The translations under genes and the position numbers were made by a program. From positions 3,683,501 to 3,747,500 of the forward strand of contig NZ_AKVN02000001.1 in NCBI RefSeq assembly GCF_000271485.2: a stretch of DNA of 64,000 bases, given 5' to 3'. This DNA comes from Pelosinus fermentans DSM 17108 (GTDB lineage: Bacteria; Bacillota; Negativicutes; DSM-13327). Of the stretch, positions 28,486 through 36,614 are shown piece after piece (position 1 is the first letter of the stretch; every line of letters begins with the position of its first letter). Below the pieces are notes generated by a model. It did not search any database, had not been told where the DNA came from, and was given only the letters and a program-made list of their open reading frames with translations.

Positions 28486-29808
28486 TTACGTTGCCACTAC
28501 TTTTTTACATATTTCTATCTTTTTCTGTCCTTGTATATACTGGTTCCATAAGCTCGCAACCATATGACTGGTTCCTTGCAACCCCATAAATGGCCGATTT
28601 TTAAGGATCATTTCGTCGTATACAGGTGAAGAGATATGCTGATATGCCACATCTTTCACTGCTTTTTGATGCAGAATCGCTTTTTCTCTACTGCTTGCCA
28701 TCAGCAATCCGCCTCGTAAGCCGGCCAAGTGTTGTTCTATTTTCTGCTGATCCTTATATGCATCCAACACAATACCAATATATTCAGGATAACTCTGCTT
28801 AAAGGGAACGCCATTTTGCAATACGGTTATGATTTTCTTTGCATTCATCCACTCCCCTCGTACTGCCTGAGATATAGAAAAGGCTACGGAGGCAGGGGCA
28901 GCAATGAAAATGCTGTCGAACCAGATATTCCCCCAAATCTCTTGCTGCTCTTTATTCATAATGTCATGTTTTTGTTCTAGACCATTCGCTTCTTGTTGAA
29001 GAGCTTTTAGTCCAGTACTTTCCCCCGACAGATAATAATCAATCGCTTTTAGCCAGCTCAAGGAACCTTGTATGCCATAAGGGGGCAATAAGGAGACATA
29101 GGGCATATCATACTGCTCTTCCAGCAGCTCTGCCAGCTCACGTCCTAGTTCATCATGAACTACAATATTCAGCTGCGCCTGAGTCATATTGGTAATTTCC
29201 TGCATCGTACTTCCTGCCCCCGGGCAAGCAATTACCTCATAACCAGCTAAGGTCAGCATACGCCGCAGCTCCTGCAGGTCATGGGCTGCATTATAATAAC
29301 CAACACTGCATCCTAAAAGATTAACCGTCCTCGGCTTTATAGCAGTACGCAACTGCAGGGGCACCTCACGAAAATAGGCTTTGGCAGCTGCCTGATATCC
29401 GGCCCAAAATCCCTCTTCCAAATCATGACGATCCAGGCAAATCACAGGACAATTCAGATCTGCCTGCTTGGCAATCTGCAAAAGATTCTCATTCCGAGTA
29501 CTGTCAGTACAGCTGTTCGCCAGCAGCACTACAGATGGCTGAGCCGTCTGTTTTATTGATTGTAAAATATGCAGCAAATACTGCTCTGTACCAGAAAATA
29601 TAGCATCTTTATTCCTTTGGGAACAAAAGAAGCGCATTCTTGCTGTTGGACATTGTTTTTCGATATACTCATGAGCTGAAAAATAACACCACAAGGAACT
29701 GTTAAGCACCATTACAGCATCTGGAATACCTGCAAAAAAGGTTGATGCACCTGTCAATCCACAACTATTGCCCTCTTTGCACATATAGGTTGAAAGACTC
29801 GTAACCAT
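28486..29808 (-). CDS. Nitrogenase component-1-like protein (NifD/BchB superfamily)
   Basis: 440 aa. Three cysteines are spaced like the cluster ligands of the superfamily: Cys16 (NSCGLTGASTFFAGI), Cys41 (NSSLWC) and Cys100 (LLANSCTDS). DAIFSGTEQYLLHIL matches the position of the 'VFGG..KL' motif. There is no homocitrate-type cofactor signature I can see. Start ATG 29808 with GGGAGG 8 nt upstream; the open reading continues 12 codons further upstream into the riboswitch terminator region. First gene after riboswitch B, 31 bp before the receptor gene. No NifH-like reductase gene is nearby, so electron donor and reaction are unknown; tetrapyrrole-ring reduction or metal handling is inferred. 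Confidence 0.82.
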   Translation of the reverse strand: MVTSLSTYMCKEGNSCGLTGASTFFAGIPDAVMVLNSSLWCYFSAHEYIEKQCPTARMRFFCSQRNKDAIFSGTEQYLLHILQSIKQTAQPSVVLLANSCTDSTRNENLLQIAKQADLNCPVICLDRHDLEEGFWAGYQAAAKAYFREVPLQLRTAIKPRTVNLLGCSVGYYNAAHDLQELRRMLTLAGYEVIACPGAGSTMQEITNMTQAQLNIVVHDELGRELAELLEEQYDMPYVSLLPPYGIQGSLSWLKAIDYYLSGESTGLKALQQEANGLEQKHDIMNKEQQEIWGNIWFDSIFIAAPASVAFSISQAVRGEWMNAKKIITVLQNGVPFKQSYPEYIGIVLDAYKDQQKIEQHLAGLRGGLLMASSREKAILHQKAVKDVAYQHISSPVYDEMILKNRPFMGLQGTSHMVASLWNQYIQGQKKIEICKKVVAT

Positions 29809-29851
29809 ACACAGTACCTCCCTTTTTTTGCAGTTCTCCAACAATACCCAT

Positions 29852-29969: not shown

Positions 29970-30177
29970 ATCCCCTCCCCATCTCTCGCAGGTTCTAACG
30001 GTGATTGCTATATAGGCAGTTCTCCTGACTTAGAATCATTGCTTCCCCATACCTTCCCAAGACCGTTGTCTCAGTGGCATAATCATGGGTTCACTCCTCA
30101 TTACAGTGGCGGGACCGTGCCGGAATGAAACCGGACTTCCCTATTAAGCCCCAAAGGGCACCTATACCATCCATATG
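29970..30177 (-). ncRNA. Cobalamin riboswitch B, upstream of the nitrogenase-like/TonB operon
   Basis: B12 box AGTCAGGAGAACTGCCTAT, core GGTCCCGCCACTGTAATGAG and 5' element TAATAGGGAAGTCCGGT, all on the minus strand; 3' tail ACCTGCGAGAGATGGGGAGG. It controls the long operon reaching at least to tonB (17.4 kb). Confidence 0.95.
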
Positions 30178-30200
30178 AATTTTTATACGTTATAAGATTC

Positions 30201-32580: not shown

Positions 32581-33561
32581 TTACTGAAATAGCTGTGGAT
32601 AAAAAGCTTTGGCTAACCATTGAACCGTTTTACCGCTTCTAATTCCTCCATTCATATCATTGAAAGAAAAAATAACAAATCGTCGCTTCTTGATTGCTTC
32701 TACCTCCGATAATGCCGGATTCTTTACAAGCATTTGTATTGTCTCTTGGGCTGATGATGCAGCATGTTCATTAATCACAATCACCTCTGGATTGCGTCTT
32801 ATGATCTCCTGCCAGTCTGTTTTTCCCCAGCTTTTTTCTAAATTTCCAAAAACATTATCACCGCCCGCCAAACGTATTAAATCACTTTCCAGCGATCTTC
32901 CTGCAATTAAAACTTGATTCCCTGCCGCTGCATCAATTACCATAAATTTGACCCGTTTATCGATAATATCAGTTTTTTCTTTAACTAGCTGAATCTCATT
33001 TTTTATATTTTTAATGAGATCCTGTGCTTTTGCTTCAACATGAAAAATTTTTCCGATATTGTTAATATCATTATACACTTCCTGAACCGTTGCATGCTCC
33101 TTAAGTCCCCCTTGGGTGATATAGGACTTAATATTTTGCTTTTCCAGAACATCCACAGTACCAATCCACTTATCCTCAAAGGCATCATTATAGCCATAAA
33201 TAAAATCCGGTTTTACTGCTAATAAGGTATCCTTTGAAGGATACCTATCCGATAGGACTTGAATTTTGTTATATTGTTCCTTGTATTCAGCCTGAATTTC
33301 ACCGTCCATATGGGCTGCTCCTACTATTTTGTCCGAAAGACCCAGAGCCAGCATAATCTCAGTGGCATGCTGGTTCAAAGTAACTACTCGCTGAGGAACA
33401 GTTACAAATTCAATCACACGTTTATGATTGTTTATCATAACCCTCCCTTGTTGTTCTTTAGAACCATCATTCGTAACTTGTTTATTTATGCAGCCGATTA
33501 ATAAAAATGATACCAGCACTAGCATCGCCAAAAACAGATACTGTTTTTTTGTTATACTCAT
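32581..33561 (-). CDS. BtuF/FecB-type binding lipoprotein (orphan)
   Basis: 326 aa. Lipobox FLLIGC around residue 24-25. KRVIEFVTVPQRVVTLNQHATEIMLALG and AVKPDFIYGYNDAFED mark a cluster A-II binding protein for an iron complex or corrinoid. Of two adjacent ATGs, the second (33561) has AGGAGG at the better distance of 5 nt. No permease or ATPase is adjacent, so it presumably delivers to one of the two BtuCD-like importers in this region. It lies downstream of the tandem riboswitches D/E, but a small gene and a modest terminator intervene. Confidence 0.88.
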   Translation of the reverse strand: MSITKKQYLFLAMLVLVSFLLIGCINKQVTNDGSKEQQGRVMINNHKRVIEFVTVPQRVVTLNQHATEIMLALGLSDKIVGAAHMDGEIQAEYKEQYNKIQVLSDRYPSKDTLLAVKPDFIYGYNDAFEDKWIGTVDVLEKQNIKSYITQGGLKEHATVQEVYNDINNIGKIFHVEAKAQDLIKNIKNEIQLVKEKTDIIDKRVKFMVIDAAAGNQVLIAGRSLESDLIRLAGGDNVFGNLEKSWGKTDWQEIIRRNPEVIVINEHAASSAQETIQMLVKNPALSEVEAIKKRRFVIFSFNDMNGGIRSGKTVQWLAKAFYPQLFQ

Positions 33562-33639
33562 CATTTCCTCCTAAAACAAATTTAATTTGGTATTCATAAC
33601 TCCACTTTTAAATATAAAGGCTTACTGTCCTTAAATGAA

Positions 33640-33668
33640 AATCCTCCAGCAACAAGAGCCGGAGGATT
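33640..33668 (-). terminator. Terminator after the 53-aa reading frame
   Basis: AATCCTCC/GGAGGATT stem with a 13-base loop, followed by TTCATTT on the minus strand. Moderate strength; readthrough to the binding-protein gene is plausible. Confidence 0.6.
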
Positions 33669-33721
33669 CACCAAACATTTCCTCACAATCTTTAGCCCAG
33701 GCTAGTACTATATGCTTACTT

Positions 33722-33883
33722 TTAAGACAAAACAGCCATGTCCCAGAACCATTGTGTCTTTGTAATATCCTTCGTTCGTATTTCCTTTTTAGTCTTTTGA
33801 TTGTCTTGTTTAATTGCAAAACCTTTCTTATATTGCTGCTGTATCCCCATAAGTTCTCTTGCCATTTCACTTGTTAATTCCAT
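33722..33883 (-). CDS. 53-residue protein of unknown function under tandem riboswitch control
   Basis: Reads MELTSEMARELMGIQQQYKK, then a Lys/Arg/Thr-rich middle and KTQWFWDMAVLS at the end. GGAGG sits exactly 8 nt upstream of ATG, better than any other start in this leader. It is soluble, basic and likely helical, with no signal. It is the first reading frame after riboswitches E and D, and a terminator follows. It could be a real small protein or a leader peptide influencing the binding-protein gene. A longer overlapping frame in the same stretch has no ribosome site. Confidence 0.45.
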   Translation of the reverse strand: MELTSEMARELMGIQQQYKKGFAIKQDNQKTKKEIRTKDITKTQWFWDMAVLS

Positions 33884-33928: not shown

Positions 33929-33992
33929 TAAAAATGGATCTCTCTTATAATCATCTTTAGCCATAAAGAGATGATTATAAGAGAAATCCATT
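33929..33992 (-). terminator. Riboswitch D terminator
   Basis: Long stem reading ATGGATTTCTCTTATAATCA on the minus strand against TGATTATAAGAGAGATCCAT, then TTTTTAC. It is the longest expression-platform hairpin among the seven. Confidence 0.88.
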
Positions 33993-34053
33993 ATGCTTAA
34001 CTATTTTAAGTAAAAGACAACCCAAAATAGCCTATAAAGTAGACGCCTCAAAT

Positions 34054-34256
34054 AATCCCCTTCCTATTTCCTCGTAGGTCAAACGGTGATTGTCAAATAG
34101 GCAGTTCTCCTGGCTCTGGATCATCGCGCACTCAAACCTTCCCAGGAAATTCATCCCAGTGGCATATCTTGAGGTTGCTCACCAATACAGTGGCGGGACC
34201 GCGCCGGCTTTTAACCGGACTTCCCTATTAAGCCCTTGCGGGCACCTATCTCTTTC
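34054..34256 (-). ncRNA. Cobalamin riboswitch D (second of a tandem pair)
   Basis: B12 box AGCCAGGAGAACTGCCTAT, core GGTCCCGCCACTGTATTGG and 5' domain TAATAGGGAAGTCCGGT. It lies about 250 bp downstream of riboswitch E on the same strand, with its own terminator but no TTGACA-N17-TAnnnT promoter in the gap. Flanking bases just 3' of the aptamer also resemble those of E, consistent with tandem duplication. Confidence 0.93.
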
Positions 34257-34373
34257 TATTCTTTTTTTAGTAGAAACCACTGGAGTAAAATTTAATTTGA
34301 CTCTAAAAGAAGCAAATCCCTATATTACACCACCTTTTAAGAATCGTAATTTCTTCAGTTCGACTTTTGACAA

Positions 34374-34447
34374 AATAAAAAATAGATTTCTCAACTAGTC
34401 AAACCTAACTCTTCCCTGGAAGAATTGACTATTTGAGAAACCTATTT
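34374..34447 (-). terminator. Riboswitch E terminator
   Basis: Imperfect stem beginning AATAGGTTTCTCAAATAGTC on the minus strand, closing GACTAGTTGAGAAATCTATT and followed by TTTTATTTTG. It lies between the two tandem aptamers. Confidence 0.85.
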
Positions 34448-34507
34448 TTTTCACTGGTTTCAGTTGAATGACAACCTGAAACGAACCTATCAAATAGATG
34501 CCTCGAA

Positions 34508-34710
34508 TAATCTCCTCCCTGTTTCCTCGCAGGTCAAACGGCGATTGTCAAATAGGCAGTTCTCCTGGCTCTGGATCATCGCTCCTTCAAACCTTCCCAG
34601 GATTTCCATCCCAGTGGCATAAACTTGAAGTCACTCACCAATACAGTGGCGGGACCGCGCCGGCATTCAACCGAACTTCCCTATTAAGCCCTTGCGGGCA
34701 CCTATCTCTT
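34508..34710 (-). ncRNA. Cobalamin riboswitch E (first of a tandem pair)
   Basis: B12 box AGCCAGGAGAACTGCCTAT, core GGTCCCGCCACTGTATTGG and 5' domain TAATAGGGAAGTTCGGT, minus strand. More similar to D than to any other copy. Confidence 0.94.
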
Positions 34711-34745
34711 CTTATTAGATTGTACCTTTTGTAACTTACCTGTTT

Positions 34746-34774
34746 AAAATACCATACTCAAGTCCTACTGTCAA
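34746..34774 (-). promoter_or_regulatory. Promoter serving the tandem riboswitches
   Basis: TTGACA (34769-34774), 17-bp spacer, TATTTT (34746-34751) on the minus strand. It is the only promoter of this type upstream of D and E. Confidence 0.75.
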
Positions 34775-34880
34775 CTTATAATGAAAGAACGCCTCATCAT
34801 ATTCTACTAACTGCCTTCATATATTTATCATGTCTATATATAATAAACTACGATGGAATTATCTGGCAAGGAGGACAATC

Positions 34881-36614
34881 GTGCAACAAGGAAAACCCAG
34901 TCTGCATACTACTTCCTGGCAGTTAATCACCTCTTATTGGTTTTCAAGAAAAGCGCTGCTGGCCTGGGGATTGCTCCTTATAACTATAACACTAAACATA
35001 GGTATTGTTCTGATTAATTTATATTTAAATCACTGGCAGGGAAACTTCTATCATCAACTCCAGTATTACAATTATGCCGGTTTTATTAGTGCTTTACTTG
35101 ATTTTAGCCTTATAGGCAGTGTTTATATTATTATTTCCGGGTTTCAGGTTTTTTTTCAGATGATGCTGCAAATGCACTGGCGGCAATGGATGACTCATCA
35201 TTATCTGCAGCGCTGGCTTCATGACAAAACTTATTATTATATGAATCATTTACTCCATAATGCAGATAATCCTGATCAGCGTATTAGTGAAGATGTTCAT
35301 TTACTTGCCACTAACACACTCAGCCTTTTTTTAGGATTATTAAAACAAATTGCTACCCTCATTACCTTCATTACCGTTCTGTGGCAGTTATCGGGAAATC
35401 TTAGCCTTACCGTTAACCAAACTCCCATAACCATCTATGGCTATCTAGTCTGGGCGGCATTAGGATATTCCATCATAGGCACCTGCCTGATCACCCGGAT
35501 AGGCCGCCCCTTGGTAAGGCTAAATGTCTTGCAACAGGGCTATGAAGCTGATTTTCGCTACGCTCTTGTCCGTTTCCGGGAAAATGACGAAAGTATCGCA
35601 TTATATAATGGAGAAACAGCCGAAAAAAATAAATTCATGCGTATTTTTCACAATATTTATGCCAACTATGGAAAAATTACAATCACCAGTAAAAATATAA
35701 CTTGGCTTACTGTAATTTATTCTCAAGTATCCATTATTTTTGCTTTTCTCATGGCCTCCCCCCGTTATTTCAACAATGAAATACAACTGGGTCAACTCTT
35801 TGAAATATCAGGAGCCTATTGGTATGTCCACTCAGCTCTTTCTTACATCATTGATAGTTTTAGCAAAATTGCGGAATGGCAATCCATCCTGATTCGCCTT
35901 ACGCAATTTACTCAAAATATGCGCAAAGCCCAACTATTACTAAAAGCAACACAAGATCTTACGATACATCCTCCTGTAAACGATTCCTTTATCGCAAAAG
36001 ACCTTTCTATACAATGTCCCCGCAAAGAGTTCTTATTAAAAAACTTGTCTCTGCGGGTAACTGCCAAAGATAATATCCTCATTACAGGTCCATCTGGCTG
36101 TGGAAAAAGCACGCTGCTAAAGACCTTAACCGGTATTTGGCCTTTCTCCCAAGGAACGCTTGCACATCCACCTAAGGAAAAATTAATTCTAGTGCCGCAG
36201 AAATCTTATATTCCCATCCACACATTGTACAATGTACTCCTCTATCCTAACCTTCACACCCCCATCACCAGACTCGCTATGCAGGAAACGTTAAAACTGT
36301 GCCAGCTATCCTTCCTAACAGAACAATTAGATCAAGAAAATAATTGGGGGGAAATTTTATCCTTAGGTGAACAACAAAAATTAGCAATTGCCAGGGCCAT
36401 ACTGCATCAGCCGGACTGGCTGCTGCTTGACGAAGCAACATCTTCCCTTGATACAGAAACGGAGCTATATATGTATGCTCTCTTAAAAAGAATGCTGCCT
36501 AAAACCGTACTTATCAGTGTCGGACATCAAGACGCTTTAAAGAAATTTCATACATTAAAACTGGAACTAGACGGACTGGGAAGCTGGCAATTATCAAAGC
36601 TGCCAGCAACATGA
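34881..36614 (+). CDS. SbmA/BacA-type ABC transporter with fused ATPase (YddA/Rv1819c-like)
   Basis: 577 aa half-transporter. A six-helix membrane domain of the SbmA/BacA family occupies roughly residues 1-330 (LNHWQGNFYHQLQYYNYAGF is diagnostic). An ATPase follows with Walker A GPSGCGKST starting near residue 403, signature LSLGEQQKL (an LSGGQ variant) and Walker B WLLLDEATSSLD. It dimerises in the inner membrane. Rv1819c of this group imports cobalamin and ABCD4 handles it in humans, which fits the neighbouring riboswitches. Start GTG 34881 with AAGGAGG 6 nt upstream, preferred to an in-frame ATG 51 nt earlier without a ribosome site. Confidence 0.85.
   Translation: MQQGKPSLHTTSWQLITSYWFSRKALLAWGLLLITITLNIGIVLINLYLNHWQGNFYHQLQYYNYAGFISALLDFSLIGSVYIIISGFQVFFQMMLQMHWRQWMTHHYLQRWLHDKTYYYMNHLLHNADNPDQRISEDVHLLATNTLSLFLGLLKQIATLITFITVLWQLSGNLSLTVNQTPITIYGYLVWAALGYSIIGTCLITRIGRPLVRLNVLQQGYEADFRYALVRFRENDESIALYNGETAEKNKFMRIFHNIYANYGKITITSKNITWLTVIYSQVSIIFAFLMASPRYFNNEIQLGQLFEISGAYWYVHSALSYIIDSFSKIAEWQSILIRLTQFTQNMRKAQLLLKATQDLTIHPPVNDSFIAKDLSIQCPRKEFLLKNLSLRVTAKDNILITGPSGCGKSTLLKTLTGIWPFSQGTLAHPPKEKLILVPQKSYIPIHTLYNVLLYPNLHTPITRLAMQETLKLCQLSFLTEQLDQENNWGEILSLGEQQKLAIARAILHQPDWLLLDEATSSLDTETELYMYALLKRMLPKTVLISVGHQDALKKFHTLKLELDGLGSWQLSKLPAT

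Follow-up and report, generated by a model that had tools for sequence, protein, structure and literature searches.

A probable tandem adenosylcobalamin riboswitch with two predicted terminators in series upstream of a btuF-like gene in Pelosinus fermentans

Introduction

The arrangement of two adenosylcobalamin (AdoCbl) riboswitches in one leader is already published as a 'pseudo-cooperative' class (PMC9481103; PMC2258182). AdoCbl tandems whose units have separate expression platforms are placed in this class (PMC9481103), and AdoCbl tandems have been described as independent riboswitches, each with its own platform (PMC2258182). A survey from 2007 found multiple aptamers in <1% of AdoCbl leaders (PMC2258182). 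The 2022 survey by Sherlock et al. reports 26 AdoCbl doublets and lists no triplets (PMC9481103). In the established mechanism of cobalamin riboswitches, the ligand favours a kissing loop between L5 and L13, this loop blocks the antiterminator, and the terminator forms; nearly all of the functional cobalamin riboswitches in one study had predicted intrinsic terminators (PMC9600662).

Here we describe a pair of cobalamin riboswitches, E and D, in the genome of Pelosinus fermentans DSM 17108. Tandem TPP riboswitches follow the same series logic, being two independent transcriptional OFF switches (PMC9481103), but differ from E-D in ligand and aptamer class. The SAM-I/AdoCbl tandem of Bacillus clausii metE likewise has two terminators that act independently in a single leader and together give NOR logic, but senses two different ligands, unlike E-D. 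Single terminator-type cobalamin riboswitches, such as those of B. subtilis btuF and Sporomusa ovata btuB2, resemble E and D in aptamer, L5-L13 interaction and association with B12 transport (PMC9600662); their leaders contain one unit, whereas E-D contains two.

Results

The analyzed window comprises 64,000 nucleotides of contig NZ_AKVN02000001.1 (positions 3,683,501 to 3,747,500). It contains seven of the 16 cobalamin riboswitches of the genome, all on the minus strand, which also carries all features given below by window position unless stated otherwise. Aptamer E (34538-34720; 98.9 bits), which would be transcribed first, and aptamer D (34083-34264; 105.3 bits) are full-length matches to RF00174 (model positions 1-189), both far above the cut-off of 31.5 bits. 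Their membership in this family suggests that E and D bind adenosylcobalamin or a related cobamide. They lie on the same strand at a start-to-start distance of 455-456 nt, bearing out an earlier note made from the sequence, which had proposed two cobalamin riboswitches about 450 bp apart by repeat unit. No gene is evident between them, and both are located upstream of one predicted operon. The interval assigned to the tandem in that note (34054-34774) proved too short, as D's terminator falls outside it; the leader extends from 34774 to about 33884. The possibility that either unit is a decayed remnant was ruled out, as aptamer core, platform and covariation are kept in both.

The expression platforms were analyzed by folding truncated transcripts, by counting standard pairs and by assessing complementarity to L5. 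Each aptamer is followed, in this order, by a G-rich L13 region, the element GATTATTYGAG, a small enclosed hairpin, a long terminator and a T-run. In E, the G-rich L13 region and the antiterminator 5' strand (GGAGGAGATTATTCGAGGCATCTATT) occupy 34492-34517; the intrinsic terminator hairpin (34380-34447) precedes the T-run and supplies, with its 5' arm, the antiterminator's 3' strand. The corresponding features of D are the L13 region with the antiterminator 5' strand at 34037-34062, containing GATTATTTGAGGCGTCTA, and the terminator hairpin at 33933-33992, again followed by a T-run. The predicted hairpins are highly stable (-27.6 kcal/mol, z -5.8 for E; -32 kcal/mol, z -8.2 for D), and no shuffled sequence was equally stable in either case. 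The earlier proposal of a hairpin and T-run behind each aptamer is thus borne out.

When transcripts were folded up to the terminator loop, GATTATTYGAG and its neighbours paired with the 5' arm of the terminator in 12 of 12 units from six Pelosinus genomes, so that the same alternative antiterminator and terminator are predicted separately for every unit; in D of genome G005 the GATTATTYGAG element is diverged. In an alignment of the 12 platforms, standard pairs were found in 90.1% of antiterminator cells, compared to 43-59% in slid controls, and in 95.3% of terminator cells, compared to 44-52%. Cells changed on both sides numbered 14 for the antiterminator and 26 for the terminator, counts that overstate the number of independent events because the 12 platforms are related sequences. 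In every copy, L5 (GGUCCC) and the G-rich L13 segment show complementarity, indicating a possible pairing. In the P. fermentans genome the complementary stretch is longer in D (about 6 bp) than in E (about 4 bp), and E may therefore respond differently.

These features suggest how the leader may operate. Transcription would begin at the single promoter upstream of E, and RNA polymerase would pass two independent cobalamin OFF switches serially, E and then D. Without ligand, GATTATTYGAGGCRTCTA, which makes up the L13 region's 3' part, would form the antiterminator by pairing with the terminator's 5' arm, and transcription would continue. With ligand, the L5-L13 kissing loop would sequester the G-rich part of GATTATTYGAGGCRTCTA, the terminator hairpin would form and transcription would stop. 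Such coupling of ligand to termination through the kissing loop is predicted for both E and D from the established mechanism of these switches (PMC9600662). Both stops would have to be escaped for transcription of a 53-residue open reading frame (ORF) and, by read-through, of a btuF-like uptake gene. The residual transcription of the two terminators would multiply, resulting in much tighter repression, a somewhat lower half-point and no more than modest sharpening. We conclude that E-D is very probably a tandem (pseudo-cooperative) AdoCbl riboswitch with two independent OFF switches in series behind one predicted promoter. The ligand, the termination, the co-transcription and the start site of the E-D leader are predictions from sequence. 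The arrangement put forward in the earlier note, in which a transcript from one main promoter has to pass two ligand-dependent terminators, is well supported by the layout conserved in six species, the antiterminators predicted in all 12 units and the covariation.

The predicted leader promoter (34746-34774; TTGACA-17-TATTTT with an extended -10 TG) has the same hexamers and the same spacing in each of the six Pelosinus genomes. No TTGACA-N17-TAnnnT sequence was found for D, in agreement with the earlier assignment of a promoter to E alone, and the promoter scan rejected a sigma-70 promoter for D equal in strength to that of E. A weak promoter-like site, TTGTCA-19-TACGAT, is present between E and D (34343-34373) and is a possible confounder. 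If it were active, D alone would govern much of the expression and E would just trim it. The site has better-scoring versions in two relatives (TTGTCA-17-TATGAT in G007 and TTGTCA-18-TACGAT in G001), and a conserved Shine-Dalgarno-like sequence, CTTAAAAGGTGGTGTAAT, lies immediately behind it. However, its score in P. fermentans (8.3) is below the 95% point of shuffled intervals (9.3), and the site is not conserved, being lost in G003 and G004, whereas E's promoter is invariant. We therefore consider a second promoter quite unlikely and infer a single promoter for E and D, with one weak internal candidate remaining.

The interval between E's terminator and D also contains, at approximately 34312-34345, a Shine-Dalgarno-like stretch (CTTAAAAGGTGGTGTAATATAGGGATTTGC) that is well conserved in five genomes, with no evident ORF in any of these five. 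In the G003 version, AAAGGAGG...ATG leads into a short open frame.

Each of the two units has the other as its closest paralog in the genome. The aptamers share 89.1% identity, the next best values in the genome being 80.9% and 81.9% and the genome-wide median 72.2%. Similarly, their 110-nt platforms are 74.1% identical, compared to 51-59% with the other copies in the window and a mean of 48% for shuffled sequences. The earlier view that the two units are more alike than either is to other copies thus holds for aptamers and platforms, and its suggestion of a local duplication is supported. Orthologous E copies are 95-97% alike across species and group together, indicating that the duplication is older than these species. 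The difference from E is ~9-13% for most D copies. JBW45 (G003) departs from this pattern: its E and D share 95.6% identity, and its D clusters with the E copies, suggestive of gene conversion; G007 shows a partly conversion-like similarity.

Could the second unit simply be a redundant duplicate, retained by recombination rather than by selection for a regulatory effect? The conversion-like similarity in G003 and partly in G007, the frequency of tandems in Negativicutes and a degenerate middle copy in a triple array of the same genome (see below) are in line with this view. A free copy would be expected to decay, however, as that middle copy appears to have done, whereas aptamer core, antiterminator and terminator are kept in both units in six species, with covarying pairs. 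Retention by recombination alone thus appears rather improbable.

A further alternative, which we regard as unlikely though less so than redundancy, is that E and D are tuned differently in affinity or cobamide selectivity and form a two-range or two-corrinoid NOR gate. The differences between them are concentrated in the P4 region, the P6 accessory region and the strength of L5-L13, and swaps of P2 and P6 accessory elements can change corrinoid selectivity (PMC9600662). The conservation among E orthologs and the distance of most D copies from E also fit this possibility. Against it, the core residues of E and D are identical, and the conversion-like identity in JBW45 argues against strong divergence in that strain.

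The first gene after the switches is the 53-residue ORF (33722-33883; MELTSEMARELMGIQQQ...DITKTQWFWDMAVLS), which has the ribosome binding site GGAGG, is conserved after the tandem in five genomes and is under purifying selection (dN/dS 0.05-0.55). Among 100 sampled genomes of Negativicutes it is limited to Pelosinus, and it pointed to P. fermentans UBA6563, JBW45, P. propionicus DSM 13327 and an uncultured Pelosinus as close relatives. No Pfam or NCBIfam family was found for it, a match to DUF4473 being below its cut-off. The second gene of the predicted operon (32581-33564) encodes a btuF-like substrate-binding protein of the corrinoid/siderophore type (PF01497; weak BtuF match NF002894). 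The stretch from D's terminator to btuF yielded no promoter-like site, making co-transcription likely. Between the ORF and btuF lies a hairpin with a poor T-tail (33639-33669; TTTTCATTT; -20.5 kcal/mol, z -5.8) that is conserved in five genomes and was not called in the terminator scan. It is a candidate partial terminator or processing stem and may partly separate btuF from the leader. Of eight Pelosinus genomes, six carry a btuF ortholog, and all of these six have the E-D tandem. In G005 an unrelated 108-residue ORF takes the place of the 53-residue ORF and the tandem is still present, ruling out the 53-residue ORF as a constant partner. It is therefore btuF that consistently accompanies the tandem.

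A C-terminal tail similar to DITKTQWFWDMAVLS also occurs in a LysR-type regulator and in an adjacent 59-residue ORF (genome C1:364405-364792), both conserved in most Pelosinus genomes; the 53-residue protein and the regulator have DITxxQWFWDxAVLS in common. It is conceivable, but in our judgement a long shot, that E and D sense different cobamides or ranges as a NOR gate and that the 53-residue protein passes the cobalamin status to a transcription factor. If true, the locus would be a two-input cobamide NOR gate, with a small protein specific to the genus and repressed by B12 as its first output.

Two neighbouring genes deserve mention. Divergent from the leader is a gene for an SbmA/BacA-like ABC transporter (34830-36614, plus strand; PF05992, PF06472). 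The SbmA/BacA-like family includes B12 importers, and this protein is a candidate corrinoid importer that has no riboswitch itself. A gene for a nitrogenase component-1-like protein (28486-29844; PF00148; BchB/NifE-like) is located among B12 genes, directly behind the riboswitch at 29998-30180.

Arrays were defined as neighbouring riboswitches at most 700 nt apart from start to start, leaving out one divergent pair in G041. Across 48 Negativicutes genomes we found at least 379 cobalamin riboswitches, with at least 29 doublets and at least three triplets in at least 17 genomes. Arrays make up about 9% of the leaders among the matches listed, and the comparison of ~9% with the <1% of the 2007 survey is a rough one because definitions differ between surveys. 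At least seven of 27 inspected arrays have a possible short ORF between units, which lowers the number of strictly uninterrupted tandems. The arrays precede genes for TonB-dependent receptors, methylmalonyl-CoA mutase, the cobaltochelatase CbiK, a FecCD-type permease, CoA transferases and others.

In the P. fermentans genome, a triple array precedes a TonB-dependent receptor gene (C1:3832696-3833653; L040:4697-5654). Its middle copy is weaker (78.5 bits), with a shortened L5 and without a clear T-run, and a 40-residue ORF lies between copies 2 and 3. Triplets are also present in G001 and G005. At loci L059 and L071, the tandem cobalamin riboswitches are followed by the gene for methylmalonyl-CoA mutase. 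This enzyme depends on B12, and a simple B12 OFF switch ahead of it would be unexpected.

The consequences of a tandem for the dose response were explored with a model of two independent, identical switches with a leak of 2-10% each. In this model the 10-90% range narrowed from 81-fold to 42-49-fold (apparent Hill coefficient 1.13-1.18), the half-point shifted to 0.43-0.47 of the single-switch value, and the ON/OFF ratio was squared, as was the leak. With affinities 10-fold apart and 10% leak, the sharpening was gone and the gain in ON/OFF ratio was kept. The earlier note had expected the tandem to sharpen the response or widen the dynamic range. The model lends little support to the first effect, the gain in Hill coefficient being small, and supports the second in the form of lower leak; 'widen the dynamic range' is therefore the better reading. 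A 'digital' response, the published expectation, plays a minor part under these simple assumptions, and tighter shut-off of the uptake operon would be the best-supported role of the tandem.

Discussion

The E-D arrangement is kept in relatives of P. fermentans, and its main predicted effect is a tighter shut-off of a B12-uptake operon. The mild surprise is the frequency of tandems in Negativicutes, which emerge as a lineage rich in tandem cobalamin riboswitches, triple arrays included. As tandems are common there, their selective reason is open to comparative study. With six orthologous pairs, matched platforms and some cultured strains, E-D provides a natural test bed for the benefit of same-ligand tandems.

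Like the AdoCbl doublets of Sherlock et al. (2022), E-D combines two complete riboswitches of one class, both with a platform of their own, ahead of a single operon. No mention of the Pelosinus arrays was found in the passages of PMC9481103 consulted. Compared to the list given there, P. fermentans and two relatives have triplets, and some of their arrays carry short ORFs between units. E-D also differs from those doublets in having the 53-residue ORF as its first gene, and its platforms, in which a long antiterminator encloses an extra hairpin, are unlike those of single terminator-type cobalamin switches. In conclusion, E-D is a good new, well-conserved example of a known tandem design.
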